Below are positions 5,956-32,054 of a stretch of DNA of 36,951 bases, in pieces. Within the stretch, counting starts at the first letter, position 1. Each line of letters starts with the position of its first letter. Made by a program: the position numbers and the translations under genes. This DNA comes from a virus, in IMG/VR virus record IMGVR_UViG_3300042090_002661, positions 1-36,951 of that record; one strand, 5' to 3'. Under the pieces are notes generated by a model. The model worked only from the letters and a program-made list of their open reading frames with translations, made no database searches and was not told the origin of the DNA.

Positions 5956-5979
5956 TCGGTTATTGTGGAGGTTCAAACC

Positions 5980-8714: not shown

Positions 8715-10256
8715 ATGGCGAATAGATCAAAAATAATTGGCGAAATAGGGGATTTAGTGATAAGCCTTCACAATGAAGGACACAATCCCACTCAAATATC
8801 TCAGAGACTCCCTTTTGCCACCAGTAAAGACACAATCAAATCATTTTTATTTAAAAATGGACTAACTCCAAATGTTAGACAATCAAGCTTAAAAGCTGAT
8901 ATTTATCGAGCATTCCTAAAAGAAGTACAAGGAGATTCAACCAATTGGAGTGTAAAGAGAAAAAAATATAAAATTTCCTTTGACCTTGCTAAAGATCTAA
9001 TGAAAAAAAACAACATCGTAGTAAGAGATAGGGCGGCAGCTTCTCGAGATAAAAATCTTACTGAAGAAGAAATTCAACGACGGCTCGGAGATAAAACAAG
9101 ATTACTGGACATAGAAGGCGACAAATATCACTTAATGTGTGAAGATGGGCACGCTTATTACAAAAAATCAGCAAAGATAGATCGAGGGTGTCCATACGGG
9201 AAGAGCGGCACCCGAACTGACGTGACGGAAATGGCCAGAGAATTATTAGAAATAGGGTATCAACTGGTCGAAAATACCTTTATTAAAAAAAGAAAAGCGC
9301 TAAAGGCAATACACCTAAAATGTGGAAATGTAAGGGAAAATAGATTTCGTAATTTTTTTGTACAAGAATGTTCCACTTGTAACAATAATGGAGTCTCTAA
9401 AGAAGAAATTTCTTTAAAGAACTGGATAGAATCATTAGGATTTCAAACGGAAAAATATAAATTCAAAGAAAGAATTACGAAGCCCAAAGAAATTGACGTT
9501 TACATACCTTCTTTGAAAATAGGTTTCGAATATTGTGGTATTTGGGATCATTGTGAAGAAAGTAGACACCCGAGAGATAGAGGCTATCACAATGGCAAAC
9601 GATTAGAAGCGGCAAAAGAGGGAATTCGATTGCTTACTATCTATAGCAATGAATGGAAAGACAGGAATTATCAAGTAAAAAGCTTCATAAAGAGCGTTTT
9701 AAATAAAAATATCAGAACATTATACGCTAGACAGTGTACCGCAAAAGAAATAGATAAAGACTATGGTGCAGAATTTCTTAAAGTATATCACATACAAGGA
9801 GAGTGCAATTCCATATTTCATCAAGGATTATTTCTGGGTAATGAACTCGTCGGAGTCATGGCATTTTCGCATCATCACACCGACCCTCACAGTTTAAGTG
9901 TAACAGTAGGTAGGATGTGTTTCAAAGCCGATACTACAATTATCGGTGGCGCCAGTAAAATGCTGGAGCATGCTAAGGACAAAATTAAACAATTAGGATA
10001 TTCCTCTATTAAAACGTGGTCAGACAATAGATGGTCAGAGGGAAAAGTATATGAAAAGATGGGATTTTCTTTGGAAACAGAATCTGGACCAGATTTTGAC
10101 TACGTTAGAGGAAAAAATGTAATCGGTAAGCAATCGCTTAGATTTACAGAAGAAGAAAAAACTTTAGGAATAAGTGAGAAAGAATTGAGAAAAAGCCAGG
10201 GTTACATGAGAATATGGGATTGTGGCCAAAAAACATGGATATTAAATTTAATATAA
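8715..10256 (+). CDS. free-standing homing endonuclease, Vsr-like/EDxHD-type core with GNAT-like C-terminus
   Basis: 513 residues. An N-terminal helix-turn-helix-like part (NEGHNPTQISQRLPFATSKD) is followed by a zinc-ribbon-like module (MCEDGH, and later LKCGN with CSTC), then the nuclease core KEIDVYIPSLKIGFEYCG ... IRLLTIYSNEW. The C-terminal third has the same HIQG, NELVGVMAFSHHH, TIIGGASKMLEHA, SDNRWSEGKVYEKMGF series as the proteins at 3629-5269 and 30609-32054, and ends RIWDCGQKTWILNLI. It stands alone between the capsid gene and an unrelated small gene; the capsid frame is intact, so this is not an intron-encoded enzyme. Its own promoter abuts the start codon. AT-rich relative to the capsid gene. 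Function: self-spreading DNA nicking or cutting. Confidence 0.88.
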   Translation: MANRSKIIGEIGDLVISLHNEGHNPTQISQRLPFATSKDTIKSFLFKNGLTPNVRQSSLKADIYRAFLKEVQGDSTNWSVKRKKYKISFDLAKDLMKKNNIVVRDRAAASRDKNLTEEEIQRRLGDKTRLLDIEGDKYHLMCEDGHAYYKKSAKIDRGCPYGKSGTRTDVTEMARELLEIGYQLVENTFIKKRKALKAIHLKCGNVRENRFRNFFVQECSTCNNNGVSKEEISLKNWIESLGFQTEKYKFKERITKPKEIDVYIPSLKIGFEYCGIWDHCEESRHPRDRGYHNGKRLEAAKEGIRLLTIYSNEWKDRNYQVKSFIKSVLNKNIRTLYARQCTAKEIDKDYGAEFLKVYHIQGECNSIFHQGLFLGNELVGVMAFSHHHTDPHSLSVTVGRMCFKADTTIIGGASKMLEHAKDKIKQLGYSSIKTWSDNRWSEGKVYEKMGFSLETESGPDFDYVRGKNVIGKQSLRFTEEEKTLGISEKELRKSQGYMRIWDCGQKTWILNLI

Positions 10257-11421: not shown

Positions 11422-12993
11422 ATGGCCTTTTCTAACCTAAATATCACTGCCATTCAAGAAGCTATGGCGGATGCGCCGGCGGGAAATTCGCTGGTGAGTG
11501 CCATCCTGAATGGCTGTCCACTTTCCAACCTTACCCTGATCAGACTGCAAGATGTTATGGGTAGCCAGCCGATTGGCAATGACATCAATGCTGCTATCCA
11601 AGGAAAACAAACACTTTCTTTCTTAGATCTTCAAACTATGATTTCTGGATTTGCTAGCGCCCAATTGGCGGCAGATGTTATCTCCAACATTGCGGGCGGA
11701 ATTAGCCCTACGGCATTGAATAGGATTCATACATTGTTCAGTTCAATACCCAATCCTATCCCAGCCTCTCTCACGAATTTGCCAGTCAATGTATCAATGC
11801 CCGCCGGATTCAGCATGGCCGTCGGACCTTTGGGCGGACTCCAACAAATCGCACTCACGTTTCCTGCAGGAAGCGCCTTTCCTGCTTCCGGCCCTGGTAG
11901 CTTTTTTGAAATCCAGAACGTTGGAAATGCCAATAGATACGCTGTTTGGTTCAATGTTCCTGGCGGCGCTACGCCACAAGTTGCCCAAGCCGCCGCTCAG
12001 GCTACCTATACCAGTTTAAGCACGATGACCTCTACGCCAATCTCGGCGACGCTGGATGGACAAACTTTAACTCCCGGTGTTTATAGTGCTGGCGCTCCTC
12101 ATCTCGCAACTTCTGGAGCTGGAACTTTAACTTTTAACGGAGCTGGCGTCTATGTTATCATAGCATCCAGCACTCTCACGACTGGTGCCGGCGGCACGCC
12201 TACTATGACTTTGTCTGGCGGTGCTACTGCAGCAAATATTTATTGGATCGTTGGCTCTTCTGCCACAATCAACAGTGGAACTGCCGGAACTTTCCAAGGT
12301 AACGTCATTGCTCAAGCAAGCGTAACGGACACCTTGGGTGGAACTGTCAATGGCAGCTTGATCGCTTTAACTGGTGCTGTAACTTTAAGTGCAGCTTCCA
12401 TAGTCAACGCGCAGTCGTCTCCGTTGCTAAACGCAGCCGGTCCTTACGGACTTTTGGGAGCTTCTGGAGTAACCAATACTGGTTCTTCTGTTATCAACGG
12501 CGATGTTGGATCTTATCCCACCAACAGTGTAACTGGATTCCCACCTGGAGTAATCAATCCGATTGCTGGTGGAAATACCAATCCCACTCCCGGTGGCTAT
12601 ACTGGAATCGAAGTCAGTATTACCTCTGGCGCTTCTGCCGCAACTGTTGCTGCAGATGTTTATGCGGCCCTTAATGGCAACCTAATCGGTATGAATGAAT
12701 CGGTTAGCGGAGCCGTTGTTGACATTACCATCAATGCCATTCTCTCGCAAGTTAACGGAATCGTCTTCTCGCCTCCGGCTGGGACTTATGCTTCAACACA
12801 AAGCGTAAGCCTATCAGCTGCTCAATGTGGTGTTAGTCTCTATTACACCACAAACGGTTCCACTCCTACTACTAGCAGCACACTGTATACGGGGCCCATC
12901 TCGGTTTCCGCAAGCGAAACAATCAAGGTTTTGGGAGTCAAGAATGGTTTCCAGAATTCAGCCATCGCGAGTGCAGCTTACGTAATTTCGTAA
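11422..12993 (+). CDS. multidomain virion surface protein with inserted permuted DUF3494 module and CHB_HEX_C-type C-terminus
   Basis: 523 residues. Residues 1-110 contain about four degenerate helical repeats (LNITAIQEAM, LTLIRLQDVM, LSFLDLQTMI, ISPTALNRIH). Residues 120-185 and 385-440 form one recurrent phage module (FFEIQNVGNANRYAVWFNVP then YTGIEVSITSGASAATVA) split by an insertion. The insertion, 185-380, is a DUF3494 ice-binding-type beta-solenoid: LDGQTLTPGVYSAG, TLTFNGAGVY, ANIYWIVGSSATI, FQGNVIAQAS, GSLIALTGAVTLS, then LLGASGVTNTGSSVINGDVG and TGFPPG. The last two elements normally open the domain, so the order is circularly permuted. Residues 445-523 match the CHB_HEX_C_1 domain of chitobiases (VSLYYTTNGSTPTTSS). 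No signal peptide. Likely a surface-exposed virion protein binding carbohydrate or cells. Good ribosome site (AAGGAG). Confidence 0.75.
   Translation: MAFSNLNITAIQEAMADAPAGNSLVSAILNGCPLSNLTLIRLQDVMGSQPIGNDINAAIQGKQTLSFLDLQTMISGFASAQLAADVISNIAGGISPTALNRIHTLFSSIPNPIPASLTNLPVNVSMPAGFSMAVGPLGGLQQIALTFPAGSAFPASGPGSFFEIQNVGNANRYAVWFNVPGGATPQVAQAAAQATYTSLSTMTSTPISATLDGQTLTPGVYSAGAPHLATSGAGTLTFNGAGVYVIIASSTLTTGAGGTPTMTLSGGATAANIYWIVGSSATINSGTAGTFQGNVIAQASVTDTLGGTVNGSLIALTGAVTLSAASIVNAQSSPLLNAAGPYGLLGASGVTNTGSSVINGDVGSYPTNSVTGFPPGVINPIAGGNTNPTPGGYTGIEVSITSGASAATVAADVYAALNGNLIGMNESVSGAVVDITINAILSQVNGIVFSPPAGTYASTQSVSLSAAQCGVSLYYTTNGSTPTTSSTLYTGPISVSASETIKVLGVKNGFQNSAIASAAYVIS
11974..12561 (+). repeat. 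DUF3494-module copy 1 (homologous to 27754-28365)
   Basis: DNA encoding the permuted DUF3494 module. It shares long near-identical stretches with the copy inside the sheath gene, including an exact 32-nt match (12124-12155 with 27925-27956). This points to duplication or gene conversion within the phage genome. Confidence 0.8.
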
Positions 12994-13035
12994 TTTAACT
13001 CTCTAGACTGTGTCGAAAGGCACTGATAGAAATTC

Positions 13036-13068
13036 AAGGCCTAGCAGAAATGTTAGGCCTTTTTATTT
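13036..13068 (+). terminator. rho-independent terminator of the 11422 gene
   Basis: AAGGCCTA (13036-13043) pairs with TAGGCCTT (13054-13061), with a loop of about 10 nt, followed by TTTTATTT. The 3' arm also encodes the last codons and the stop of the convergent dNMP-kinase-like gene. Confidence 0.8.
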
Positions 13069-13625
13069 GTCGAAGCTACAAAATCTGCAATATGAACGGC
13101 GATGTGCTCGCTTGGTTTGGAATCCGTATATACAACCCAATAAAATTGGTTCAGGTATCCATCCAAAGCTGTCTCGGAAGGATGATTTTCATTGTCTCGC
13201 CACGCTTCGCATCTTTCTTTTCTAACTTCTACCGGAGCCTCCAGCCTCAGGGTCAATGCTTCGGGGAAGGCCTCCAACTCGTTAGGGAATCTACAATCAT
13301 CGATTATGACAATTCCCTTTGGGTTATTAGACAAATATTGTTGAGCTCGATATTTAGCAATGTCGACCCAAACGTTTTCGCCCAAAGTGTTGCGCCCCCA
13401 TTCCGTGCCAATGAGCTGCAAAAGTGGGCCATCCTTCTTGGTTTTCAATTCTTGGCCATATTTTCGCATCACGTTCCAGATGACATCATGCATCTCATAT
13501 AAAACATCGGCAAACTTAATTAACTTCGGTTCATATCCATCATTGGTCAGGATAGTCGACAAATTCTTAGATAAAGTAGTCTTTCCGCTACCTTGTTTGC
13601 CAGAAATCAAAATCACTTTAACCAT
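13053..13625 (-). CDS. deoxynucleoside monophosphate kinase-like P-loop kinase
   Basis: 190 residues from the ATG at 13625, chosen over an upstream start because GAGGA lies 6 nt before it and the P-loop strand begins right there (MVKVILISGKQGSGKTTLSK). The Walker A motif is GKQGSGKT (residues 9-16). The segment IVIIDDCRFPNELEAF matches the conserved D-x-R-F-P-N-E element of phage dNMP kinases such as T4 gp1, followed by LRLEAPVEVRKERCE and a lid-like NENHPSETALD. These enzymes phosphorylate dNMPs to dNDPs for phage DNA synthesis. It is an isolated metabolic gene on the minus strand between virion genes. The specific substrate cannot be read. Confidence 0.8.
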   Translation of the reverse strand: MVKVILISGKQGSGKTTLSKNLSTILTNDGYEPKLIKFADVLYEMHDVIWNVMRKYGQELKTKKDGPLLQLIGTEWGRNTLGENVWVDIAKYRAQQYLSNNPKGIVIIDDCRFPNELEAFPEALTLRLEAPVEVRKERCEAWRDNENHPSETALDGYLNQFYWVVYTDSKPSEHIAVHIADFVASTNKKA

Positions 13626-13708
13626 TCGATTTTCCTCATCTTTTATGCATCTGCTTGGATTCCCAAGCAATCTTAACACTGATTATACCATTTTCTGGAG
13701 CTAACGCA

Positions 13709-15123: not shown

Positions 15124-16128
15124 ATGAGAAAGTATACTATAGAAGAATTAAAATTAAAATCTAGAGAATATGAGTACAGGGCGGATTTTCTAAAATACGC
15201 AGGCGGCTATTATATGAGCGCCCAAAGACAGGGCATTCTGGATGAAGTCTGCGCTCATATGCCAAAGAATTTATTAATCGGCAGAAAACCTCATAATGCC
15301 AAATGGAATTTTGAATCATTAACGATAGAATGCGCTAAATATGCGAACAGATATCAATTGAGAAAAAATAATCCTTCTGCTTTTAATGCCGCAAAGAGAT
15401 TAAAACTTTTGAACACTTTTTATCCCAAGAAAGACGAATTTAGAAATACACCATATTCAGACGAAGAAATTGCAAAAGAAATAGGCACATACAAAAATAA
15501 AAATGAATTGAAAACAAAAAATCCCTATCTATATCGAATGTTATTGAAACATCCCAATAAATCTCTACTTCTTTCCACACTTCCAGCGGATACTAGAAAG
15601 GGCAAAATTCCCCATAATAAAAAGTGGACGGAGATAACAGTGCCCGCAGAAGCTGCTAAGTACTCCACTAGGATAAGTTTTTTAACACAAGCCCCGGGTG
15701 CCTATGACGCCGCCCTAGATTTAAAAATAATGGACACCTCCTGTGCCCATATGAAAAGGGCGATCAACACATCGAGCCACGAAGAAACACTGTTCAATTT
15801 GATCAAAAAGCAATTCCCTAAGGCTCAAAAATTGAGGGTTAGGAAAAAGAATTTGGTTCCTAATAAGCCGTATATCAATGGTTTTGATTTAGATACTTAC
15901 ATTCCTGAATTGCGCAAGGGTATCGAATTCGATGGTCGTTATTGGCATAGTCCGGAAGGTTTAAAACGATCTAGGGAACATTGGCCTGAAGAAGATATTC
16001 AAAATTATCATCAAATTAAAGATGAATATTTTAAATCTAAAGGTATCGAAATTTTACATATTAGAGAAGAAGATTGGCTCTTAGATCCTGAAAAATGCAT
16101 TTCTCAATGTTTGAAATTTTTAAAGTAA
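15124..16128 (+). CDS. free-standing homing endonuclease with CAHM repeat modules
   Basis: 334 residues. Residues 1-215 are about four modules of 45-55 residues with the pattern of a basic helix, N-P-x-A-Y/F-x-A-A, then a C-A-H-M-like end (DEVCAHMPKN and DTSCAHMKRA; the middle copies have lost the Cys). Similar modules precede the nuclease at 30609-32054, so they are probably DNA-binding units. Residues about 220-334 are a Vsr-like nuclease core: GFDLDTYIPELRKGIEFDG, RYWHS, and GIEILHIREEDWL. It lacks the GNAT-like C-terminal domain seen in three related proteins here. It has its own promoter with no leader, and is AT-rich. It separates the connector-like gene from the 2H phosphoesterase gene. 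Confidence 0.85.
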   Translation: MRKYTIEELKLKSREYEYRADFLKYAGGYYMSAQRQGILDEVCAHMPKNLLIGRKPHNAKWNFESLTIECAKYANRYQLRKNNPSAFNAAKRLKLLNTFYPKKDEFRNTPYSDEEIAKEIGTYKNKNELKTKNPYLYRMLLKHPNKSLLLSTLPADTRKGKIPHNKKWTEITVPAEAAKYSTRISFLTQAPGAYDAALDLKIMDTSCAHMKRAINTSSHEETLFNLIKKQFPKAQKLRVRKKNLVPNKPYINGFDLDTYIPELRKGIEFDGRYWHSPEGLKRSREHWPEEDIQNYHQIKDEYFKSKGIEILHIREEDWLLDPEKCISQCLKFLK

Positions 16129-16131
16129 TTT

Positions 16132-16860
16132 ATGATAGGCGAAGGGGTTCACAACAAATATAAAGAAACTGCTAAAAATGGTGGAGACATTTTGTGGCAC
16201 GTCACTATCAGAGGCAGAAAGGAATTGATGCCTGGAATTCCTTTGCACATGTCCTTAAAAGTGTTCGAAGATAAAAAAGAAATGGACATAGAAGAATTGA
16301 AGCGAAAAGTAAAAGAATTCGACATAAAGACACCCAATCCAAAAGAGTTGAAATTTAGGACGACTATTTTCACCTCTGAAAGGGACGGTCTAAAATATTA
16401 CATGCTCCTAATTGATGGGTCTGACAAGTCATACGGTGAATTCTATGAAAGCTTGAAACACTGCGGTACGGTTTATAAAAAGTTCATGCCACACATCACG
16501 ATTGATAAAGATTTATACGATAGCATCAACAGGGACGGGCTCAAGCCGGAAGAAATAAAATTTGACGATTTGACGATTGAAGCTGGGGCCGGAAATACGG
16601 TTCATGAATTTGAAAAGAGCGAGGACTTTGTTCAGATCTTAAAAGAAGTGGCTTTCTACACGAGCCTAAGAGATTCTTTGGTGATTTCTTTGCCCGATGA
16701 CGCTTTCAGCAATTGGATACAAGACAACCCAAATGCTAGAAAAGAGATAATGGCAAAGCACGAAGAAAGAGTCAGATTTCATTTTGGCGATCAAGAAATC
16801 GCCCAATATGCCTTGGAAAACGGTATTGCAAAGGCATACGAATTGTTGAGGAAAAAATAA
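16132..16860 (+). CDS. 2H phosphoesterase-family protein
   Basis: 242 residues. Two H-x-S/T motifs at family-like spacing, PLHMSLKVF (H39, S41) and FMPHITI (H121, T123), are separated by a strand-helix-strand pattern (FRTTIFTSERDGLKYYMLLI), as in the LigT/2H superfamily. These enzymes hydrolyse 2',3'-cyclic phosphates or cyclic (oligo)nucleotides; phage Acb1 is a 2H enzyme that defeats CBASS. A C-terminal helical part (residues 170-242) is unexplained. The ATG comes 3 nt after the endonuclease stop, with a weak ribosome site. It overlaps the next gene by one base (TAATG) and belongs to the operon containing the cyclase-like gene at 21009. Substrate unknown; tRNA-repair-type activity is the main alternative. 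Confidence 0.65.
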   Translation: MIGEGVHNKYKETAKNGGDILWHVTIRGRKELMPGIPLHMSLKVFEDKKEMDIEELKRKVKEFDIKTPNPKELKFRTTIFTSERDGLKYYMLLIDGSDKSYGEFYESLKHCGTVYKKFMPHITIDKDLYDSINRDGLKPEEIKFDDLTIEAGAGNTVHEFEKSEDFVQILKEVAFYTSLRDSLVISLPDDAFSNWIQDNPNARKEIMAKHEERVRFHFGDQEIAQYALENGIAKAYELLRKK

Positions 16861-17364: not shown

Positions 17365-17715
17365 ATGTGTATCCAAATTTACAATTGCGATTCCAGTTCA
17401 AAGTACGATTCTTCCAAACCTCTAGAAGAGCAGCTTAGAAATTCTCAAAAAGTCGTGATCAATTACGATCCGAAGGACCCCGATATGGAAGTCTTTTTGA
17501 GCGAGATGGAAAAGCTGGCTAAAACTGGCGTTAGTTGCAATGTGAGCCTGGATGTCTCCCATAATAATTATATTACTGGAGCAAAGGCAAAAAGGCAAAT
17601 AGAAAGATTAAAAAAAGATTTAGACTTGAACGAGGCGATTAAGATTTTGGTAAATATTCATTCGGAGCTAGACAAAAGATTGGAGAGCATTTCCGTATTT
17701 TGTCGTGAAAGATAA
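17365..17715 (+). CDS. hypothetical protein
   Basis: 116 residues. Starts 1 nt after the previous stop and overlaps the next gene by one base (TAATG). The fold pattern is alpha/beta with a charged C-terminal helical part (AKRQIERLKKDLDLNEAIKI, LVNIHSELDKRLESI) that could form a coiled coil or helical hairpin. No motif identifies a function. Its place between two overlapping genes argues that it is real. Confidence 0.6.
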   Translation: MCIQIYNCDSSSKYDSSKPLEEQLRNSQKVVINYDPKDPDMEVFLSEMEKLAKTGVSCNVSLDVSHNNYITGAKAKRQIERLKKDLDLNEAIKILVNIHSELDKRLESISVFCRER

Positions 17716-18671
17716 TGTCGGCTAGACCCCCTGTTGGATTGCAGATACCCACGATCGTGCCTTTGGCACCGATAGTTCAGGAAAGCTTTGATCTAAACAG
17801 ACTCGATATTTTTGTTACCAGCCTTGGTATCGATGTCATGCATTATCGTGCCATCCCGAGCCCCATAGGACAGAACGATCGAGGCTCTTGGCGCCGAAAT
17901 GATGGGGTTGATACCATTTCCTCGAACGGGATGATCTATAGGTATGCTGGCACTTTTACTGCGACCCTAACGAGCAATGACAGAGATCAAAAACGAGGCC
18001 CATCTGGCGTGATAGACCCTTCTGAAGCGCATCTTGTTATGCCTAGATTCTACAACGCCAACGGCACCGTGGATACCGGGAATCGCATTTATCTGGCACC
18101 TGGCGATAGGATTTACATTGCAGACCCCAATGCAGACGTTAATGTGGCAAATCCTCAAAAGATGGATTATGAGGAAGGCATCGATAATGTACCGATGTTT
18201 CCTATCGTTCAATTATTAGATACCATCGTGGATAGCAGAAATATTCGGTATAATCCGAATGTTGACTACACTATCACTACGGATGGCAACATCAGATGGC
18301 TACCCGGTGGAAATAACCCAGGGATCGATCCCGATACGGGGAAAGGTCGAGTATATTCAATAGTTTATCTTTACAGAGCCTTCTATTATGTAGTTGCACT
18401 GCCCCATGAGCTTCGAATCACCAATGTTACCATCGGCGGTGTCAGGGCGCCGGCCAGAATGCCGATGGAAGCCGTTATCATGAGAGAATATATTTTTCAT
18501 AATCAAAATAAAGGCAGTAAAACTAATCAAAATGTGCCTCCAGTTCCGCAAAGAGTGGACGCTGCGCCTAGAGAGTCTACCGATCCAAATAAATATATTG
18601 TCCACGTAGATATGGGAAATGTCGAAACATTTCCAAACCATGATATAAAGAACAATGGAGACCAATCTTAA
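17715..18671 (+). CDS. putative neck/virion structural protein
   Basis: 318 residues, mixed beta content, Pro/Asn/Gly rich: IFVTSLGIDVMHYRAIPSP, TVDTGNRIYLAPGDRIYIAD, GRVYSIVYLYRAFYYVVALP. There are no transmembrane segments or enzyme motifs. The segment before the end (VPPVPQRVDAAPRESTDPNK) looks like a disordered tail. Position after the connector-like gene and before the tail-completion-type gene suggests a head-to-tail joining or neck role. No family recognised with certainty. Confidence 0.6.
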   Translation: MSARPPVGLQIPTIVPLAPIVQESFDLNRLDIFVTSLGIDVMHYRAIPSPIGQNDRGSWRRNDGVDTISSNGMIYRYAGTFTATLTSNDRDQKRGPSGVIDPSEAHLVMPRFYNANGTVDTGNRIYLAPGDRIYIADPNADVNVANPQKMDYEEGIDNVPMFPIVQLLDTIVDSRNIRYNPNVDYTITTDGNIRWLPGGNNPGIDPDTGKGRVYSIVYLYRAFYYVVALPHELRITNVTIGGVRAPARMPMEAVIMREYIFHNQNKGSKTNQNVPPVPQRVDAAPRESTDPNKYIVHVDMGNVETFPNHDIKNNGDQS

Positions 18672-19166: not shown

Positions 19167-19175
19167 GAGTAATTG

Positions 19176-19976
19176 ATGAAGCCGCGTCTATCTAAATCTG
19201 AAATAGATAAACGATTATACGATATCCATAAAGGAGTTGTATTTTCAGATCATTCTACTTTTAAAAGCGTTAATGTTAAAAGTAGACTTGTAGATGTAGT
19301 TCATGGAGAATTCTGGTGTAAATTAAACGATGTATTCAGCAAAAAGGTTGGGCACCCGCAAAGACAATTAGAAAAAACGAAGCAAACGTGGGCAAAAAAA
19401 TACGGCGTCGAAAATATATCTCAAAGTCCTTCTATCAAAAGAAAAAAAATAAGCACTTGTATTAAAAATTTTGGATATGAATTTTCAACTCAATCACCAG
19501 AAGTACAATTAAAAATAAAAGCAAATAATTATCAAAAGTATGGTTTTGAAAGTCCCAACCAAAGCCCGGTGGTAAAAGAGAAAAAGAAGAAAGTTTATTT
19601 AGAAAAATATGGAGTTGCGGCCCCTTCTCAAAACAAAGAAATAGCCTTAAAACAAGCTAAATCTGTCAATTATAGTTTCATAAAATATCACTGGAAAACC
19701 AATGAAGAGCTGGTTTGTCAAGGTTCTTATGAAGTTAAAACAGTCAATTATCTTAATGAAAATCAAATAGAATTTGAATGGCAGCCGCGAGTTTTCAAGA
19801 TGCCAAACGGCAAGACTTATCGTCCAGATCTCTATTTGGTCGATGAAAACAAGTGGATAGAGATAAAAGGTTACATGAGAAAAGACGCCCAAGAAAAATG
19901 GGATTGGTTTAAGACCCAGTTCCCAGGCGCCGAACTTTGGAATAAAGAAAAATTAAAGCATATGGGGATATTATAA
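19176..19976 (+). CDS. homing endonuclease, PD-(D/E)XK type with repeated KYG modules
   Basis: 266 residues from the ATG at 19176 (a TTG lies one codon upstream). Residues about 60-160 contain three or four repeats of the pattern K-x-T/W-x-K-K-Y-G-V-x-N-x-S-Q-S-P-x-I-K (KKYGVENISQSPSIKRKK, QKYGFESPNQSPVVKEKK, EKYGVAAPSQNKEIALKQ), DNA-binding units frequent in phage homing endonucleases. The C-terminal part has a PD-(D/E)XK core: TYRPDLYLVDENKWIEIKGY (D and E-x-K). Unlike other endonucleases here it has no promoter of its own in front and is embedded in the operon, overlapping the next gene by TAATG. Confidence 0.85.
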   Translation: MKPRLSKSEIDKRLYDIHKGVVFSDHSTFKSVNVKSRLVDVVHGEFWCKLNDVFSKKVGHPQRQLEKTKQTWAKKYGVENISQSPSIKRKKISTCIKNFGYEFSTQSPEVQLKIKANNYQKYGFESPNQSPVVKEKKKKVYLEKYGVAAPSQNKEIALKQAKSVNYSFIKYHWKTNEELVCQGSYEVKTVNYLNENQIEFEWQPRVFKMPNGKTYRPDLYLVDENKWIEIKGYMRKDAQEKWDWFKTQFPGAELWNKEKLKHMGIL

Positions 19977-21008: not shown

Positions 21009-22949
21009 ATGGATATTCCTAGTGGATTCAAATTTATCTCGTATGACGGAGATTCCGTTGGCAGACGCATCGGCAGAGCTACCATGGCTGATGATCTGGA
21101 TGAGTTGCGACACATCTCTGAGTTAATAAAAGCTGGACACGAGTTAGTCAGGCGTTGGGTGAAAGATAACAATGGTGTCTGGATTAATGGTGGAGGCGAT
21201 GAAGGGGTAGCGGCCATTCCTGGCGACTGTATTGAGAAGTTAGAACAGCTGAGAAAGGATTATGAATACCTAGTTGGGCATACTATTTCTGTGGGCGTTG
21301 GCGATAAACCCTCAGAATCTGGACGCGCGCTTCTTATGGCAAAATTAGCTGGAAAAAATAGAATCGTAAAATTTAGTCGGGCTATTGAGAAAGAAGTTGT
21401 AAAAATTAAGAAACGCGCCAAAAAGGGAGCTTTTAAATCGATGGAAGAGCACAAACTTGCCGAAGCATATTTAAAGAAAGCAGAAAATGACGATCCAAAC
21501 TCCATTGCTAATCAAAAGCCCGAAGCGACTCATGAGAATTGCGAGTGGTGTAATCAAACCGATGGCGTTGATTTAGACCATTGTACTTACTGTCACGATC
21601 AAGAGCGTGAAGAAAAATGCCCATATTGCAGCTATGATAGGCCGGTCGATGAAAAACTAGATTTTCCAGAATTAGCAGAGCAGGATTGCCAATATTGTAA
21701 AGAGAAAGACGCCGAAGAACAAAATGAGTGTAAATACTGCAATGACCCAGGCAAAAATGACATAGACGGTTCTACGCTTCCAGGACAGAGGATAGGTACA
21801 TCTCCTGATTCCACCAACGAAGCGGCCCCCGCAGGTTCCGCCGATGAAAAAGAATTGTATTCCAGAATGGATATGGCTCCCCCCGAGATTGGAAAACCAT
21901 TGCCTCCCGACAAACGGGTGCCCATTGGCCAAAATGCCCCTATGGATGTGGTTCCTAAAACTCCAGAGCAGGAAGATTCCAGATCTACTGAGAAAGATGC
22001 TGACATGGGCGAGCCTCCGGCCATTGATCCAGAAGATAATCATTCCAAAGAAGCTATGCAAGCCATAGCCAAGGAGATCGAGACCGACGGCAACCCTACG
22101 GACAAAGAAGTAAATGCGGTAGATGATGCGGCTATGCCTACGAGTAAAGAAGCAGAAGGCAATATCAGTCGTCCAAGTGGATTTGCACAGAATACTCCGG
22201 GAGATATGGGGGAAGACGGTACCAACCCTCCTACTTCGGATGAACCTGCTGGTGAAGAAGATCCGGATTATTATGGAGTGTTGGAAGCAGGCTTAGATGA
22301 GCATGCGAACGGTATTAAGAAAGAGAAATCCATTCAGATGGTTTCTCAAGCCTTAATGCAATTCAAGGCTGCCAAACAAACGTTAGAAAATATTCGAGAG
22401 CAAGCCCCCGATTTATATTCCGCTTCTATATCAATGCTAAAGGCCATGATTGAGATGGCTGGAATGTTAGGTCTTAATAGTGCCGCGTCCGCTCAGCCAC
22501 AACAGGAGCTGGGAGCAGAACAAGCAGAATTGGTGCCCAATCAACCTGAATCGAACGAGAAGCCGCCTGAAGAACAAAATGATGAATGGCATGATCCATT
22601 TCCTACCCATCCCGATCAAGGTGGCGAGGCTAAGCCTACACATTCTCCTTCCAAGAATAATCCCGCTCCCCACAGAGACATGGGAAGTGCACTTAAAGAT
22701 AGTCCCAAATCAGTTGGTGGCAGTATTGGTCAGCCAGCTGGTAAACTTTCCTCTCAACACACCACGGAACATGTAGCTAGAATTCCTACTCCTCCCGGCG
22801 CGATAAATAGTAAAGGGCAACAGAAGGTGATAGATCCCAAAACCGGCAAAACTCGTTGGATAGATCGCAAAGCTGGAATGGTACAAAGCGCCACTGGAGT
22901 ACCGATAAAATCTCCCAATAGGAATCCTCAAAGTGGATCTCAAAATTAA
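21009..22949 (+). CDS. mCpol/GGDEF-like nucleotide cyclase palm domain fused to CxxC array and disordered virion-type tail
   Basis: 646 residues. Residues 7-123 read as a polymerase-palm cyclase: a first strand with acidic residues FKFISYDGDSVGRRIG (D13, D15), the second catalytic hairpin WINGGGDEGVAAI (G62-G63-D64-E65), TISVGVG (92-98), and the closing helix AKLAGKNRIV (111-120). This is the order and spacing of minimal CRISPR polymerase (mCpol) and GGDEF enzymes, which make cyclic (oligo)nucleotides. Residues 178-244 contain five CxxC pairs (CEWC, CTYC, CPYC, CQYC, CKYC). Residues 250-646 are Pro/Glu/Asp/Asn rich with one helical segment (KSIQMVSQALMQFKAAKQTL) and a basic C-terminus (DPKTGKTRWIDRKAG). 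It sits between virion genes; the next gene starts with GTG inside it. Activity is inferred; a palm fold retained for structure is the alternative. Confidence 0.7.
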   Translation: MDIPSGFKFISYDGDSVGRRIGRATMADDLDELRHISELIKAGHELVRRWVKDNNGVWINGGGDEGVAAIPGDCIEKLEQLRKDYEYLVGHTISVGVGDKPSESGRALLMAKLAGKNRIVKFSRAIEKEVVKIKKRAKKGAFKSMEEHKLAEAYLKKAENDDPNSIANQKPEATHENCEWCNQTDGVDLDHCTYCHDQEREEKCPYCSYDRPVDEKLDFPELAEQDCQYCKEKDAEEQNECKYCNDPGKNDIDGSTLPGQRIGTSPDSTNEAAPAGSADEKELYSRMDMAPPEIGKPLPPDKRVPIGQNAPMDVVPKTPEQEDSRSTEKDADMGEPPAIDPEDNHSKEAMQAIAKEIETDGNPTDKEVNAVDDAAMPTSKEAEGNISRPSGFAQNTPGDMGEDGTNPPTSDEPAGEEDPDYYGVLEAGLDEHANGIKKEKSIQMVSQALMQFKAAKQTLENIREQAPDLYSASISMLKAMIEMAGMLGLNSAASAQPQQELGAEQAELVPNQPESNEKPPEEQNDEWHDPFPTHPDQGGEAKPTHSPSKNNPAPHRDMGSALKDSPKSVGGSIGQPAGKLSSQHTTEHVARIPTPPGAINSKGQQKVIDPKTGKTRWIDRKAGMVQSATGVPIKSPNRNPQSGSQN

Positions 22950-23679
22950 CATAGACGCGGCGGCGTTAGCTAAGGAAATCTCAGAATTTGCCAAGCAAGT
23001 AGAAGCTGACATCAAGAGAGGTGTCGCCAATCTCGCCACTATTACGCATGCCAAGGTAAAAGAGATGGCGGCTACCGAACTCAAATCCTCTAGAGAGGCT
23101 TTCATGAATAGCCTTAGTTTCGAAGAGCTCGCCGATGGTATTTGGATAGTTAGCGTTGACGAAAAAGCTTTATGGGTCGAAGAAGGCATTCCGCCCAATA
23201 CTGATATGAAACCCGCTTTGCTGAAGAATGCGGAAACATCCAAAAGCGGTGGTAAGTATAAAATCATACCTTTTGAGCACAGCAAGGCTCCTTCTCAGAT
23301 GACTCAGTCTGCGAAGAACATCGTGTCTCAGTTAAAAACCGAATTAAAAAAAGCGAATGTTCCGTTTAAAACCATCGAAAGAAACTCTGATGGTTCTCCA
23401 AGATTGGGCAAATTGCATTCACTGAATTTGCCAAGCCAAATTCCTGGCAAAGGTAATACACCCGCACTCCATGGCGTGTCTATTTATCAAACTATGAAAG
23501 GAAACGCTGTCAAAAGAGATATCATGACCTTCAGGACCGTAACAGATGGTCCCGGTAGTCAAGGAAAATGGATTCATCCCGGACTCACCGCAAAGAAATT
23601 TTTGGATAGAGCAGCGTCCTGGGCCGAGTCGGAATTTTTTGAAAAGATTTTACCTGAAATTATGGAAAGGTGGAAATAG
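22933..23679 (+). CDS. tail completion/neck protein, HK97 gp10-like
   Basis: 248 residues from a GTG start overlapping the end of the cyclase-like gene by 17 nt. An N-terminal helix (AALAKEISEFAKQVEADIKR) is followed by KVKEMAATELKSSREAFMNS, the strand pair DGIWIVSVDEKALWVEEGI, and near the C-terminus KWIHPGLTAKKFLDRAA. This pattern, a helix, a beta sandwich with an E-x-G turn, and W-I-H-P-G before a final helix, is typical of HK97-gp10-type proteins that finish the tail at the head end. No ribosome site is strong; translational coupling is likely. A GIY-YIG endonuclease gene ends directly against it on the other strand. Confidence 0.65.
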   Translation: MDLKINIDAAALAKEISEFAKQVEADIKRGVANLATITHAKVKEMAATELKSSREAFMNSLSFEELADGIWIVSVDEKALWVEEGIPPNTDMKPALLKNAETSKSGGKYKIIPFEHSKAPSQMTQSAKNIVSQLKTELKKANVPFKTIERNSDGSPRLGKLHSLNLPSQIPGKGNTPALHGVSIYQTMKGNAVKRDIMTFRTVTDGPGSQGKWIHPGLTAKKFLDRAASWAESEFFEKILPEIMERWK

Positions 23680-24498
23680 TCATTTGACATATTCAAAACA
23701 AAACCCTTTAATACACTTGTATTCTTTATTTCCCTTTCGTTTTATCTTAAGATAATTTCGCAGTGAATTTAAATTTATATTTAAACTTTCTGATGCTTCT
23801 TTTATAGAAGGATAAATAGTACCAGTTTCTAAACATTTTATCGATTTCTGACAACGCTTTTTCCCCTTTCCTGCTGCAGACATTTTCTTTTTAGTCTCTT
23901 CGGATGCTTTCCGGCCTGTCATTGCTATTCTTTGATTTTCTTTTTGTTCATCGCTTCTACTCTTACCTTTCTGCCAATTGCTCATTTTAATTTTTGTTTC
24001 TTGAGTATGTTTTTTGCCAAACCATGCTGATTTTTCTCCCCTCTGAGAGAGCGAGCATTTTATTTTAACAGATTCAGGTTGTTTTGTTCCCAACCTTATT
24101 TGTCTCATTTTCTCCCCGAATCCCGGTGGTTTTTTCTTGCCCTTTCCTGCTGCGGACATTTTCTTTTTAGTCTCTTCGGATATTTTTTGGTTTAAACCTC
24201 CTTCGTGTATATTGTATCCATTATTAATTGAGTCAAAAATTCGTATGATAAATTTTTCTCGTTCGTTCAATTCTTTCTCGTTATTAGCTCTGCACACTGC
24301 TGAAATTTCAAAATTTTCAGGGCCATATTTGTGCATAGCTCTAGTTATGGCCATATCATGTTCCTTGGATGGTCTCGTGGCCTTATATTTATGACCTCTC
24401 CATCTTTCTGATATAGTTCTTATAGTCTGTCCAACATAGAGCTTATCGTTAATTTTACAGACAATCTTATATACGTATCCATATGGCTTACTTTTCAT
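23680..24498 (-). CDS. GIY-YIG homing endonuclease with NUMOD3 repeats
   Basis: 272 residues from the ATG at 24498. This start is preferred to the one at 24516 because the predicted transcription start (about 24510) lies downstream of 24516. The domain begins GYVYKIVCKINDKLYVGQT (the GIY and YIG-equivalent YVG segments), then RWRGHK and a conserved NEREKFIIRIFDS. The C-terminal half contains repeated NUMOD3-type units (SEETKKKMSAAGKGKK twice, HTQETKIKMSNWQKGK) and a NUMOD1-like end (IYPSIKEASESLNINLNSLR). It lies between the tail completion gene and the gene at 24539, on the opposite strand, with a perfect-consensus promoter. Free-standing homing endonuclease. Confidence 0.92.
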   Translation of the reverse strand: MKSKPYGYVYKIVCKINDKLYVGQTIRTISERWRGHKYKATRPSKEHDMAITRAMHKYGPENFEISAVCRANNEKELNEREKFIIRIFDSINNGYNIHEGGLNQKISEETKKKMSAAGKGKKKPPGFGEKMRQIRLGTKQPESVKIKCSLSQRGEKSAWFGKKHTQETKIKMSNWQKGKSRSDEQKENQRIAMTGRKASEETKKKMSAAGKGKKRCQKSIKCLETGTIYPSIKEASESLNINLNSLRNYLKIKRKGNKEYKCIKGFCFEYVK

Positions 24499-24516
24499 AT
24501 TTTTCTCACTGCTCAT

Positions 24517-26015: not shown

Positions 26016-26855
26016 ATGTCTGAGAAGCTTTTTACAGCAAAACAAGCAGCAAGCGCCGTACTTGAGAAAGTAGGTGAAATTCTTCAGAAATCTGAACTTC
26101 ATAAAAAATCTGAAGGCCATTTTAGTATGAGTGCTGCCCCTGAAGAACCAGAAGCAGGTCGGGCCAGCCATCCCAGCAAGTGTCCAGAATGCGGTCATCC
26201 ATCTCCCGAGAGCGGCCAGGGCGATACCCTCCCTCGTTCTAAAGCTCAAGAAGATTGGCAGAAATCTGAGAAAGATAGTAAAATTCGCCAACTGCAAAAG
26301 CACGGTTTGAGTCCGGAGCAGATCAAGATACGACTAAAGAAAGAAGAAAAAGATATGGAAAAGCATGGCCTAAGCCCTGCAGAGATGAAAGCCAAGATGG
26401 CTAAAAAAGAAAAAGATTTAGAAAAACATGGACTTGGTCCAGCAGAAATGAAGGCCAAGATGGCCAAGGGCGAGGCCGAGAATTCTAAGAAATTAGGGTA
26501 TAAATTATCGGAAGCCGGCAAGGAAGAAAGACAGCCTGAAGCGTCTGACAATGCCTTCAAAGTTAAAGGCGAGAAAGAAGATAAGTCGTCCCATGATGAA
26601 AGACAGGCAGAGCAAAAAGATCCTCAGCACAATGCCGCAGAACAAAAAGAAGGCAACAACGAGTTAGCCGGTACGACTCCTACGGAAGTTGGCCAAGACG
26701 GCAAGAATAAGCCTGGATACGATGAAATGAAGGGGCATCTGAAGCTAGCAAAATTTATCGGAATGAAGCATTACAAAAGAAGCAAGGCTCTAGAAGGTTC
26801 TCAATCGCAGTCTAGCGCAGAAGCTCAACACGAAGAATCTATCAAAAACAAATAG
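26016..26855 (+). CDS. hydrophilic core-like protein with three tandem 20-residue repeats
   Basis: 279 residues, Lys/Glu rich. The N-terminal 30 residues are helical, then a C-P-E-C pair (SKCPECGHPSPESG) resembling a zinc knuckle, then three tandem units (residues about 90-151) with a K-H-G-L-S/G-P-x-x-x-K core, two of them nearly identical (EKHGLSPAEMKAKMAKK). The remaining part is low-complexity and charged. K-S-E occurs three times. Composition resembles head-core or internal proteins and the scaffold-like protein at 5980. No enzymatic motif is seen. The ribosome site is a modest GGGAG. Confidence 0.6.
   Translation: MSEKLFTAKQAASAVLEKVGEILQKSELHKKSEGHFSMSAAPEEPEAGRASHPSKCPECGHPSPESGQGDTLPRSKAQEDWQKSEKDSKIRQLQKHGLSPEQIKIRLKKEEKDMEKHGLSPAEMKAKMAKKEKDLEKHGLGPAEMKAKMAKGEAENSKKLGYKLSEAGKEERQPEASDNAFKVKGEKEDKSSHDERQAEQKDPQHNAAEQKEGNNELAGTTPTEVGQDGKNKPGYDEMKGHLKLAKFIGMKHYKRSKALEGSQSQSSAEAQHEESIKNK
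26283..26468 (+). repeat. tandem repeat of about 60 bp, three degenerate units
   Basis: Encodes the K-H-G-L repeats of the protein at 26016. The second and third units are nearly the same in protein but differ at many third positions, so the duplication is not recent. Confidence 0.7.
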
Positions 26856-27201: not shown

Positions 27202-29970
27202 ATGAGTTTACGTTTAATTACACCTTTTGTAAATACTAATATCCCCGGTGCGTATCCCAATGTTGTCGTTCAGAGTCAACCAGTAGGACTCGCTTCTTCT
27301 GGTATCGTTGTTATCATGGGCGAAGCTGACGGCGGACCTGGATATAACCAAGTTGCGCTTTCTAAACAAGTTTTTACGCCCGATCAACTGGCTCTAGTTC
27401 AGCAAGAATATATCGGTGGACAAATCGTTGATTCGTTCACGGCATTGGCTGCTCCTTCTGATGATCCAAATATCACTGGCTCGGCAAATTTAATTTATAT
27501 CGCCAAAACGAATAACGGAACATCTGCTTCATCTGCACTTCCTGGCAGCTACGGAACACTTTCGGATAGTAACTATGGAGTTGATGGAAATTTATATAAC
27601 TATCAAATTTTATCGGTAGACGCCGGCGTTCCTCCCATGCTTTCTGGAAATACGGTGCCGTCATTTGGCTCTGCTCTAGACGGTGCTAGCTTTTCTCTTC
27701 GCTTGAATGGTGGCGCGGTTGATGTAATCACTTTAAGTAGCGGTTCGTCTTCTCCCGTCAGCCCAGCCGAAGCCGCTGCTGGTCAGTCTGCTGCCTCTGC
27801 AGCGTACACAAGCCTGGGAGCGAGAACCCCCTCTTCAGCAATTTCACCTGTCCTCGATGGCCAGACGTTAACTCCTGGTAATTACAATACTGGAGCGGCC
27901 AGCTTAGCTGCTTCTGGTCCTGGGACTTTAACTTTTAACGGAGCTGGCGTCTATGTAATTAAGACTTCTAGCACCCTAGTCACTGGCGCTGGCGGCATTG
28001 CCACCATCGCGCTGACTGGCGGAGCAACCGCTGCAAACATCTACTGGGTGGTTGGCTCTGCGGCCACGATCAACTCCGGCTTCTCTGGAACATTCCAAGG
28101 TAACGTCATCGCTGAAACTAGCATCACGGTCAGCTTGGGCGGAACCGTCAACGGTAGCTTGATCGCATTGAATGGCGCTGTAACCCTGAGTGCTGCCACG
28201 AATGTTAGTGCTCAATCAGCACCTCTACTGAATTATGCAGGAAGTTTTGCTCTCTTGGGTGCTTCTGGAGTAACCAACACCGGTGCTTCCGTAGCCACTG
28301 GAAACGTTGGTTCTAGTCCAACCAATAGTATTGCTGGATTCCCACCCGGCACCATCGTCGGCGCAGCCCACTCCAACATTGCTGAATTAGTCACAGAGCT
28401 GAATCTATTGCTTCCTTCTGGAATCGTGGCATCTGCTGGTTCTTCGATGAACGTGGTTCTTACGATGACCGCCGAAGGTGATCCGTATGCACAGGGGTCT
28501 AGTCAATCATTCGAACTCATTGATTCTACCCTTGGAGATTTGGCCGCTTTAGGACTTTCCGCTGGATTAGTACTTCCTTCGCAATTGCCTGAAGTAGAGC
28601 TCAACATCGTCAGACCTGACATCAACGTCAATCAGTCAATCGACGTGAGCGCGGCTGTCGCCTTAGAAGTTGGATATCAAGGAACGTCTGGTACTATTTC
28701 GGTAAGCGCAACTACTATTAGCACGACTGTCGTTGGTGGAATCGGTGCGAATCTTTCGATTCCCATCAGCCAGTACACGACTATTGCGGAACTAGCGGCT
28801 TTTATCGCCGCACAGCCCGGTTATTCTGCGGTATGCCCTGCGAATGCTCAGCAATTGCCTCCCAGCGTCTTAGATCGAGTTTCTGATGTAGGCATCGCCT
28901 CTTCCGGTGCGGGATTACTTCCTGGACAAATTTGGGATGCAGCGTACCTGTTTGCGCAAGCGGCGGCAACGTCTGCTCTCGTATTTACGGTTGGCGCAGA
29001 CGGGAAAGTAGGATTACCTGCCCCCATGAGTGCCTCGTTATACTTAGCGGGTGGAACGAGGGGCGCTACCCTGGCAGTAGACATCGTCAACATCTTGAAT
29101 CAGATTGGCGGAATCAACTGCAACATGATCGTTCCTCTCTTCTCCGAAGATGCAAGTTTGGATATCGCAGCTGGATTAACAGATCCAGCCAGCACCTACA
29201 CTATCGAAGCGATCAACGCTCTCGTTAAAAGTCACTGTATCCAATACAGCACGCCTGCTCTTAAGAAAAATCGCATCTGCTTACTTTCTTGGCTTGGTAC
29301 TTATGCTTCTGCTGCGGCTGAAGCTCAGAGTCTCGGAAACTATCGATGCTCTCTCACTATGCAACAGGTCAGCCAAGTTAATTCTCAGGGCGTCATACAA
29401 CTATTTCAACCTTGGTATGCTTCTTCGTTGGCTGCTGGTATGCAAGCTGGTGGATTCTATAAATCGATCTGCAACAAAGCCGCTAACCTCATTAGTTTCA
29501 CAGATCCTAGCGGGTTTGATTCGGGAAGCCCTGGCGACGTCGAAGAGGCGTTATCAGCAGGACTCCTGTTCTTATCGCAAGATACAGGAAGAGCCGGGTA
29601 CTGGGTTTCGGACCAAACTACGTACGGATTCGATACCAACTTCGTATACAACAGTATCCAGGCTGTCTATGACTCGGATTTGATTGCTCTTGATCTGGCT
29701 CAAAGTTTCTTTACCCAGTTCGTTGGGCAGTCCTTGGCGGATGTTTCTGCCTCTGCAGCACTTTCTTTCTTGACCCAGAAGATGGATGGTTACTTGAAGC
29801 TGAAACTCATTGGTTCCAGTAGCGATGCCCCGCTCGGATTCAAGAATGCGAGCATCACGATTGACGCCCCAGAGATGGATGTGAAGGTCGAGATTAAGCT
29901 TGCCACCGCAATATACTTCATTCCGATCAACATTAACATTTCCCAGATCATGGGAACTGCGGGCACCTAA
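27202..29970 (+). CDS. tail sheath protein with inserted, circularly permuted DUF3494 module
   Basis: 922 residues, far longer than a typical sheath. The N-terminus (MSLRLITPFVNTNIPGAYPN) and C-terminal part (KNRICLLSWLGTY, FKSICNKAANL-type insertion domain, KLKLIGSSSDAPLGFKNASI, final TAIYFIPINININ-like strand) fit contractile sheath proteins, and the tail tube gene follows 16 nt downstream. Residues 182-388 interrupt a sheath strand-loop-helix (SFSLRLNGGAVDVITL, then SNIAELVTELNLLLP) with a DUF3494 beta-solenoid: LDGQTLTPGNYNTG, TLTFNGAGVY, ANIYWVVGSAATI, FQGNVIAETS, GSLIALNGAVTLS, then LLGASGVTNTGASV and AGFPPGT. The last two normally come first in DUF3494. The module should sit on the outer surface of the sheath. 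Strong ribosome site (AAAGGAG). Confidence 0.88.
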   Translation: MSLRLITPFVNTNIPGAYPNVVVQSQPVGLASSGIVVIMGEADGGPGYNQVALSKQVFTPDQLALVQQEYIGGQIVDSFTALAAPSDDPNITGSANLIYIAKTNNGTSASSALPGSYGTLSDSNYGVDGNLYNYQILSVDAGVPPMLSGNTVPSFGSALDGASFSLRLNGGAVDVITLSSGSSSPVSPAEAAAGQSAASAAYTSLGARTPSSAISPVLDGQTLTPGNYNTGAASLAASGPGTLTFNGAGVYVIKTSSTLVTGAGGIATIALTGGATAANIYWVVGSAATINSGFSGTFQGNVIAETSITVSLGGTVNGSLIALNGAVTLSAATNVSAQSAPLLNYAGSFALLGASGVTNTGASVATGNVGSSPTNSIAGFPPGTIVGAAHSNIAELVTELNLLLPSGIVASAGSSMNVVLTMTAEGDPYAQGSSQSFELIDSTLGDLAALGLSAGLVLPSQLPEVELNIVRPDINVNQSIDVSAAVALEVGYQGTSGTISVSATTISTTVVGGIGANLSIPISQYTTIAELAAFIAAQPGYSAVCPANAQQLPPSVLDRVSDVGIASSGAGLLPGQIWDAAYLFAQAAATSALVFTVGADGKVGLPAPMSASLYLAGGTRGATLAVDIVNILNQIGGINCNMIVPLFSEDASLDIAAGLTDPASTYTIEAINALVKSHCIQYSTPALKKNRICLLSWLGTYASAAAEAQSLGNYRCSLTMQQVSQVNSQGVIQLFQPWYASSLAAGMQAGGFYKSICNKAANLISFTDPSGFDSGSPGDVEEALSAGLLFLSQDTGRAGYWVSDQTTYGFDTNFVYNSIQAVYDSDLIALDLAQSFFTQFVGQSLADVSASAALSFLTQKMDGYLKLKLIGSSSDAPLGFKNASITIDAPEMDVKVEIKLATAIYFIPININISQIMGTAGT
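27754..28365 (+). repeat. DUF3494-module copy 2 (homologous to 11974-12561)
   Basis: In-frame insertion in the sheath gene with near-identical stretches to the copy in the 11422 gene, including the 32-nt exact match at 27925-27956. Both copies have the same permuted order. Confidence 0.8.
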
Positions 29971-30608: not shown

Positions 30609-32054
30609 ATGAGCCGTAAGAGATTAACAAATAAAGAAATTCATGAAGTAGCATTAACTCACCCCGACAGACAACACTTTAGAAAAAATAACCCAAGACA
30701 TTATAGCGCCGCAAAACATAGGGGCATATTAGATCAAGTTTGCGCCCACATGCCCTATTCCCGCAAATATAGGACAAATGAAGACTTAAGAAAAGACGCC
30801 AACCAGTATTCTACGCGGCTAGAATATCAAAAAAAGGATAAAGCTTCTTATTTATGTGCTTGGAAAAGAGGTATTTTAAATGATATTTGTTCACACATGA
30901 AATTCGCTTATAAACACTTTACAGAAGAAGAATTGCGATTGGGAACTTTACCGTACGAAAATAAATATCAACTTAAAATGGAAAATCCTTCTTTATATCA
31001 CGCCCTACAAAGACGACGTAAAATCAATGAAATGTGTGCACATATGGGGCCAGATAGAAATGAACCCTACACGCTCGTGGAATTAAAAGAAAAAGCATCC
31101 ATTGAGGGAACGCGTACAAGCTTTGCCAAAAAAGAAAACGGTGCCTATCAAGTAGCGCTGAACAGAGGGGTTTTAGATGAGATATGCGCTCATATGCCCA
31201 AAAATGTGACCGGTTCGCAAGGCGAAACTGAATTATTGGAATTCCTTCAAACTATAAATCTAAATTTTAAATCTACACATTTTGGTAAAAAATACCAAGT
31301 AGATTGTTATTCTGAATCTCTAAAAATTGGGGTTGAATACAATGGTTTGTATTGGCATTCAAATGAAATTTTAAAAGACAGAAATTACCATCTAGATAAA
31401 ACTAAATATTTTGAATCCAAAGGAATCCGTGTTATACACATATGGGAACACGAATGGCGAGATCGTCAAGAACAAGTCAAAGACTTCCTTAAATCTGCTT
31501 GTGGCGCCAATAAAATTAAAGTAGGGGCCAGAAAATGTGAATTCAAAGAAATTCCCCCCAAGGAATGTAAAGACTTTCTAGATAAAACTCATATACAAGG
31601 TGCTCCGCAAAATTCTCTACTCTCTCTTGGATGTTTTTATAATAGCGAATTAATCGGAGTATGCTCTTTTGGAAGGCATCACCGAAAAACTAAGGTGATT
31701 ACCTTGAATCGCTTTGCATGCTTACCGAACCATACGATAATGGGCTTCTTGTCGAAAGCATCCAAGGTAGCCTTTGAAAAGTTCAAAACTCCCATAATTT
31801 CATGGGCAGATTATTGTAAGTCGCAAGCTAACGGTTATCTAACCGCAGGCTGGCAAATTGAAGAATACCTAAAGCCTGATTATTTTTATTTTGACCCAAA
31901 GTCCCAAAAAACCATTGGAAAACAGTCACGAAAGAAAAAATCCGTTAATACTCCTCTGGGAATGACGGAAAAAGAACATGCTGAATTGGATGGTTTGTTA
32001 AAAATTTATGATTGCGGGAAAATTCGCTTGATTTATAATCCATCAAACTTATGA
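30609..32054 (+). CDS. free-standing homing endonuclease with CAHM modules, Vsr-like core and GNAT-like C-terminus
   Basis: 481 residues. Residues 1-200 are four modules ending in C-A/S-H-M (DQVCAHMPYS, NDICSHMKFA, NEMCAHMGPD, DEICAHMPKN), the same type as in the endonuclease at 15124. The nuclease core (about 205-300) has YQVDCYSESLKIGVEYNG and GIRVIHIWEHEWRDR. Residues about 305-415 (THIQGAPQNS, SELIGVCSFGRHH, GFLSKASKVAFEKF, SQANGYLTAGW) match the GNAT-like part of the proteins at 3629 and 8715, and the end is KIYDCGKIRLIYNP. It thus combines the N-terminal type of one endonuclease with the C-terminal type of others, a sign of domain shuffling. It stands next to a tRNA gene. Confidence 0.88.
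   Translation: MSRKRLTNKEIHEVALTHPDRQHFRKNNPRHYSAAKHRGILDQVCAHMPYSRKYRTNEDLRKDANQYSTRLEYQKKDKASYLCAWKRGILNDICSHMKFAYKHFTEEELRLGTLPYENKYQLKMENPSLYHALQRRRKINEMCAHMGPDRNEPYTLVELKEKASIEGTRTSFAKKENGAYQVALNRGVLDEICAHMPKNVTGSQGETELLEFLQTINLNFKSTHFGKKYQVDCYSESLKIGVEYNGLYWHSNEILKDRNYHLDKTKYFESKGIRVIHIWEHEWRDRQEQVKDFLKSACGANKIKVGARKCEFKEIPPKECKDFLDKTHIQGAPQNSLLSLGCFYNSELIGVCSFGRHHRKTKVITLNRFACLPNHTIMGFLSKASKVAFEKFKTPIISWADYCKSQANGYLTAGWQIEEYLKPDYFYFDPKSQKTIGKQSRKKKSVNTPLGMTEKEHAELDGLLKIYDCGKIRLIYNPSNL

Follow-up and report, generated by a model that had tools for sequence, protein, structure and literature searches.

Why should a tailed phage encode, among its virion genes, a protein that begins with an mCpol domain? 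Earlier work presented this domain as an enzyme of bacterial defence; the authors of the Panoptes work expected a phage answer to it and knew of none. We analysed a 36,951-nucleotide stretch of viral DNA (IMG/VR record IMGVR_UViG_3300042090_002661; hereafter the window), in which the carrier gene at 21009..22949 on the plus strand encodes a protein of 646 aa, with its ATG one base past the stop codon of the upstream neighbour. From N- to C-terminus, the carrier comprises the mCpol domain (residues 9–122; 21033..21374), a CxxC-rich linker (21537..21746) with five CxxC motifs, four of them CxYC, a conserved helical segment (residues about 444–490; 22338..22478) that aligns to residues 221–266 of the Myxococcus phage Mx1 protein, and a tail conserved in the sequence alignment (residues about 566–634; 22704..22910), all on the plus strand.

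Residues 9–122 match the Pfam mCpol model PF18182 over all 114 positions (1–114/114) with an E value of 1.5e-13 and 51.5 bits, about twice the curated cut-off of 26.4 bits, and the same model is matched by 31/31 aligned homologues. The NCBIfam mCpol model NF033576 scores 38.3 bits, just below its cut-off of 40, and the sole other relevant Pfam match of the window protein, PF22335 (Cas10 palm2), is also just below cut-off. A sequence search of the PDB returned two deposited versions of OptS as the best matches (9mnr, E 1.8e-4; 9nwn, E 3e-4). The AlphaFold2 model of the domain, built from 30 relatives, has a mean pLDDT of 96, and Foldseek ranks six OptS chains (entries 9mnr, 9pd0 and 9nwn) first against the PDB with TM scores of 0.77–0.89, a best E value of 6.8e-9 and an rmsd of about 1.5 Å for the best superposition, followed by GGDEF diguanylate cyclases and then by Cas10 palms. 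These data make the domain a genuine member of the mCpol family. The earlier note on this DNA had read the region as an mCpol/GGDEF-like cyclase domain on the basis of its motifs, and the full-length PF18182 match confirms the mCpol identity; the motifs it listed are all present (DGDSVG at residues 13–18, GGGDE at 61–65, TISVGVG at 92–98 and AKLAGKNRIV at 111–120), and OptS, not a non-polymerase fold, is the top structural match. The domain stands where the note had placed it, with exact bounds of residues 9–122, while the span 21009–21380 that it gave covers just the first fifth of the gene.

As GGDEF structures come next after OptS in the fold ranking, the domain carries a GGGDE motif and GGDEF domains have been reported in polyvalent proteins (PMC5512222), we considered a GGDEF-type diguanylate cyclase that alters host physiology through c-di-GMP. 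No GGDEF Pfam model matches the window protein, however, GGDEF-like matches among the relatives are few and all weak (6/31), OptS is the better match by both sequence and fold, and a serine of the adenine type, S37, is near invariant. A GGDEF identity was ruled out by Pfam and the fold ranking, and we consider this explanation very improbable.

The acidic active site proposed in the earlier note is also found, in that both metal ligands of OptS are matched by acidic residues in the alignment. D13, in the first-strand motif D13-G-D15 (21045..21053, plus strand), aligns with OptS D6, and E65, in the hairpin G61-G-G-D64-E65 (21189..21203, plus strand), aligns with OptS D57. In OptS, D6 and D57 both hold metal ions, and an Asn mutant of either makes no product (PMC12657218). 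The second ligand position is E in the window, not D as in OptS, and GGGDE is nearer to the GGDEF and Cas10 motifs than to the QAADG of KpOptS. S37 (21117..21119, plus strand) corresponds to OptS S30, which contacts adenine and whose S30N mutant shifts the product ratio (PMC12657218); this position is S in 50/55 and T in 5/55 loci. The basic residues K112 and K116 of the AKLAGKN motif (21342..21356, plus strand) probably bind phosphate.

Across 55 non-redundant loci, D15 is present in 54 and D13 in the large majority, D64 in 52, and E65 as E in 46 with Q in six, while K112 is kept in 52/55 and K116 in 49/54. D15, D64, K112, S37 and K116 rank between 4th and 10th of 119 columns by conservation, E65 ranks 20th, and D13 ranks only 26th because of a clade that carries D13N. 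Pairwise dN/dS of the domain is 0.05–0.33, taken only from pairs with unsaturated dS, and the mCpol domain is under purifying selection. One pair of close relatives, L159 and L161, has a pN of 0.41 in the mCpol domain versus 0.21 in the rest of the carrier, which is the reverse of most pairs and may reflect a swap of the domain by recombination.

We then asked how widely the arrangement occurs. IMG/VR scans with a one-sequence query found no relatives and a two-sequence query found one; the family was opened by scans that used the tail sheath or the protein encoded at 17715 as query (64 + 37 loci via the latter). It consists of large, mostly uncultured tailed phages, and about 55 non-redundant phage loci, that of Mx1 included, have an N-terminal mCpol domain at one and the same position of the virion operon. 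This slot is just before the homologue of the gene at 22933 and 4–6 kb upstream of the tail sheath, and among the 37 loci that have the downstream gene and enough upstream DNA, 34 have the domain. It is kept even in phages with only about 28–42% identity to the window, such as Mx1 (OR576727), which is the sole mCpol match among named phage records and encodes the orthologue, the unannotated 468-aa protein WNM70340, at the corresponding position a few genes ahead of its tail sheath. In the window, the carrier is bracketed by two syntenic markers on the plus strand, a virion structural protein (phrog_1004; 17715..18671), which lies between a 2H-phosphoesterase-like gene and the mCpol gene, and the next operon gene (phrog_16819; 22933..23679). 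The tail sheath gene (27202..29970, plus strand; phrog_279, E 1.9e-24), whose product is 42% identical to the Mx1 sheath, identifies the locus as a contractile-tail virion operon. The virion-operon setting claimed from the window alone is therefore a feature of the family, with the same slot throughout and tail sheath and virion genes nearby, and the mCpol domain in these phages is an inherited trait.

The best-known setting of mCpol is Panoptes, so a host Panoptes gene mis-binned into a viral contig, or an assembly artefact, had to be weighed. Against this, the slot is shared by about 55 independent phage contigs and by Mx1, a phage isolate, the ORF is single and continuous, and its adjacent genes are without a Pfam effector match; specifically, no Pfam effector match was found in the flanking genes 19976 and 22933, both of which are conserved with the virion operon. 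The synteny in about 55 phages rules out a chance or assembly artefact, and we regard mis-binning as hardly conceivable. A chance origin of the domain itself is rejected because all the aligned homologues match PF18182, the same-slot loci number 55 and OptS is the top structure. Only one MAG was found to hold such phage contigs, and its mCpol matches adjoin homologues of virion-operon genes.

All catalytic letters are kept in the window and in about 33/59 tree rows, but some members depart from this pattern. In Mx1, L003 and L190, D13 and the GGDE pair are gone, and 13 loci (L173, L174, L175, L177, L179, L181, L182, L186, L192, L195, L197, L199 and L201), which form a mostly coherent clade, have D13N, equivalent to the D6N mutation that inactivates OptS, while retaining D64, E65 and mostly K112/K116. 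To judge from these residues, the D13N clade suggests a nucleotide-binding but non-catalytic form, or the use of another ligand. The linker also varies: CxYC repeats number as many as six within the window's clade, whereas the D13N clade has none and its linker is strongly acidic (D+E as high as 37%). In L135 (= L027), L136 and L142 (= L022), the carrier aligns from about residue 155–177 to 634, without the mCpol domain; the CxxC-rich linker is present also in phages lacking the domain, and the helical segment is retained in L027/L022. The carriers of L219 and L220 have a different N-terminus, and in L219 the carrier orthologue (12318–13700) has an unrelated basic, His/Cys-containing N-terminus in place of mCpol, with the 2H gene kept. 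Given the domain-less carriers and these exceptions, the mCpol domain behaves as a detachable module, usually but not always catalytically complete as far as its letters tell. Its absence from an otherwise kept carrier is as expected for a cargo module.

With sites degenerate or altered in Mx1, L003, L190 and the D13N clade, not every member can be taken to be catalytic; since the domain persists there without the canonical site, it may in part serve a structural purpose or bind ligands. A rival reading takes this further: the mCpol fold would serve as an assembly or nucleotide-binding module of a virion protein, for example by mediating dimerisation or by soaking up cyclic nucleotides of the host, and would synthesise little or nothing. 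The retention of the domain after loss of catalytic letters, D13N throughout a clade, the place of the carrier gene among virion genes and the assembly of mCpol as dimers and tetramers (PMC12657218) are all consistent with it. On the other hand, the catalytic letters are kept together over deep divergence and are among the most conserved columns, and one clade drops the domain and keeps the carrier, so the domain is not needed for assembly there. We therefore regard such repurposing as fairly unlikely.

To place the protein among known systems, we compared it with Panoptes, type III CRISPR and the polyvalent proteins. OptS of Panoptes (9mnr, 9pd0, 9nwn; PMC12657218, PMC12657230) shares with the phage domain its palm fold and domain length and, as predicted by alignment, acidic residues at both metal-ligand positions and the adenine-selecting serine. 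OptS, however, is a stand-alone protein of about 125 aa, whereas the phage mCpol is the N-terminal domain of a 646-aa virion-operon protein, and the phage locus is without an OptE-type effector (S-2TMbeta, CARF/SAVED-2TM). With no stand-alone OptS and no adjacent effector, the phage locus is not a Panoptes system. The palm is likewise homologous to those of Cas10/Csm1 and Cmr2, in line with the PF22335 score, but the phage protein has one palm, sits in a virion locus and is without an HD domain, Zn domain, second palm or crRNA complex; it is not Cas10. We also compared the polyvalent proteins, which lie near virion genes, carry GGDEF and 2H domains and were proposed by Iyer et al. in 2017 to interfere with host nucleotide responses (PMC5512222). 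They too are signalling-enzyme domains encoded among virion genes and are thought to be injected, and the Mx1 operon itself encodes an ART-PolyVal domain. In contrast, mCpol is not among the polyvalent-protein domains of Iyer et al. (PMC5512222), and the window carrier has one recognised enzymatic domain where typical polyvalent proteins have several unrelated ones. As far as position and modularity can indicate, the carrier resembles a polyvalent-type effector.

About 4 kb upstream of the mCpol gene, a 2H-phosphoesterase-like protein is encoded at 16132..16860 (plus strand) with the motifs H39xS and H121xT. H39 and H121 are invariant in eight aligned members, and HxS/T is present at both motifs in every complete match of the locus table. 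Its profile aligns both motifs with PH0099 (1vdx; E 0.012), which we take to be a 2H/LigT-like structure. Foldseek with the AlphaFold2 model places LigT on top, phage anti-CBASS Acb1 (7t27) at rank 7 and eukaryotic Usb1 further down, the three together making up most of the top matches, although all these fold matches are weak (TM 0.3–0.4, maximum 0.41; E ≥ 5e-3). The likeness to LigT and Acb1 lies in the two HxT/S motifs and a putative common fold class; no Acb1 match was found at the sequence level, and in many phages the domain is linked, unlike LigT and Acb1, to a lytic-transglycosylase-like segment (VESSGGK...NH), recognised by inspection and without a Pfam match. Most phages of the window's clade encode this upstream 2H domain.

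The 2H gene is found in 29/59 tree rows. Their mCpol slot is readable, and in 28 of the 29 it holds a domain that is either intact or E65Q; both 2H and mCpol are missing from L135, L136 and L142. Eleven phages with intact mCpol have no 2H detected in the DNA examined, and L219 has 2H without mCpol. A tight functional pairing was rejected: the raw counts are compelling, but when corrected for kinship on the virion-protein tree, the association has only four independent contrasts and is not significant (p 0.5). Cooperation of 2H and mCpol is no more than a lead. In Mx1, the interval between the homologues of 14213 and 17715 encodes a 1,479-aa protein with GNAT, ART-PolyVal and NUDIX domains, as well as a PI3/4-kinase-like protein. 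The stretch upstream of the carrier seems to be a site where polyvalent-type effectors cluster.

Taken with the identity, the active site and the synteny, this setting leads us to propose, with about even confidence, that the carrier is a synthase with which the phage makes adenine cyclic dinucleotides, that it is either packaged or a late product, and that it acts on nucleotide-based immunity of the host. The earlier note had likewise suggested a packaged or late signal synthase that might manipulate host cyclic-nucleotide defence. By homology to OptS, the mCpol, a minimal Cas10-type palm, would dimerise and pair two ATPs, or ATP and another NTP, and would close the pair into a cyclic dinucleotide that contains adenine and is of the same kind as 2',3'-c-di-AMP. 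The rest of the carrier, with its CxxC linker, its helical segment and its C-terminal tail, may anchor the domain in the virion or in a late step of assembly. The most likely use is counter-defence in the style of polyvalent proteins, with a synthase that would either enter the cell along with the virion or be produced there in the course of infection. The product may perturb host immunity that reads cyclic nucleotides, by serving as a decoy, by competition or by holding effectors of the inhibitory type in the off state. In the window's clade, mCpol could act in parallel with the 2H phosphoesterase on the neighbouring operon protein, which could cut host signals. What the analysis establishes is the fold and homology of the domain, its preserved active-site letters, the synteny, the purifying selection, the modularity and the presence of a 2H-like domain nearby; we infer the catalysis, product, packaging, immune target and cooperation with 2H of the phage mCpol.

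The late-gene operon position would also suit a synthase that is not packaged, is expressed late through this position alone and acts inside the cell on the phage's own programme, such as lysis timing or superinfection control, and not on host immunity. This is rather unlikely in our view, as in about 34/37 loci the domain is part of a conserved carrier that shares the virion synteny, and delivery fits the other effector-type domains of the same region better than free late expression does. Within the preferred reading of a synthase directed at host immunity, the boldest version is that a phage that degrades nucleotides gains from supplying decoys against the Panoptes effector. Such supply would be useful because this effector kills once cyclic nucleotides are removed (PMC12657218, PMC12657230). 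The idea, and with it the wider proposal, is weakened by the rarity of Panoptes and CBASS marker genes in the phylum of the MAG, which is not necessarily that of the phage host: no other mCpol was found in 57 other genomes, SMODS is in 2/56 and Cap15 in 1/56. We consider this version improbable.

The literature searched, with most subscription journals and preprints outside its scope, does not mention a phage-borne mCpol; the upstream 2H-phosphoesterase domain in the window's clade and the ART-PolyVal/NUDIX/GNAT protein of Mx1 in that region are also new here. The family represents a lineage that has carried mCpol over deep time, with a site that appears intact by its letters in most members. 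Its natural knock-outs (degenerate, D13N and domain-less) make phage synthesis of immune cyclic nucleotides, and its purpose, directly testable. If the proposal is true, polyvalent-type phage effectors extend from degrading nucleotide signals to making them.

Three further features of the operon were observed. An ice-binding-like DUF3494 domain (PF11999) lies inside the tail sheath at 27202–29970 (residues about 182–333, E 1.8e-30), and a second copy is in a separate ORF (11422–12993) with Fn3-associated domains, which by BLAST also matches the sheath ORFs of L005, L045 and L021. The tripeptide KSE occurs 14 times in seven ORFs for virion-type proteins (e.g. 5965–7071 and 26016–26855), 5.7 times the expectation from composition, and is possibly a prohead-protease or targeting signal. 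Finally, homing-endonuclease-like ORFs interrupt the virion operon at 2862–3578, 3629–5269, 8715–10256, 15124–16128, 19173–19976, 23680–24516 and 30609–32054, assigned by a PHROG homing/HNH match for the last and by mutual similarity or inspection for the others.
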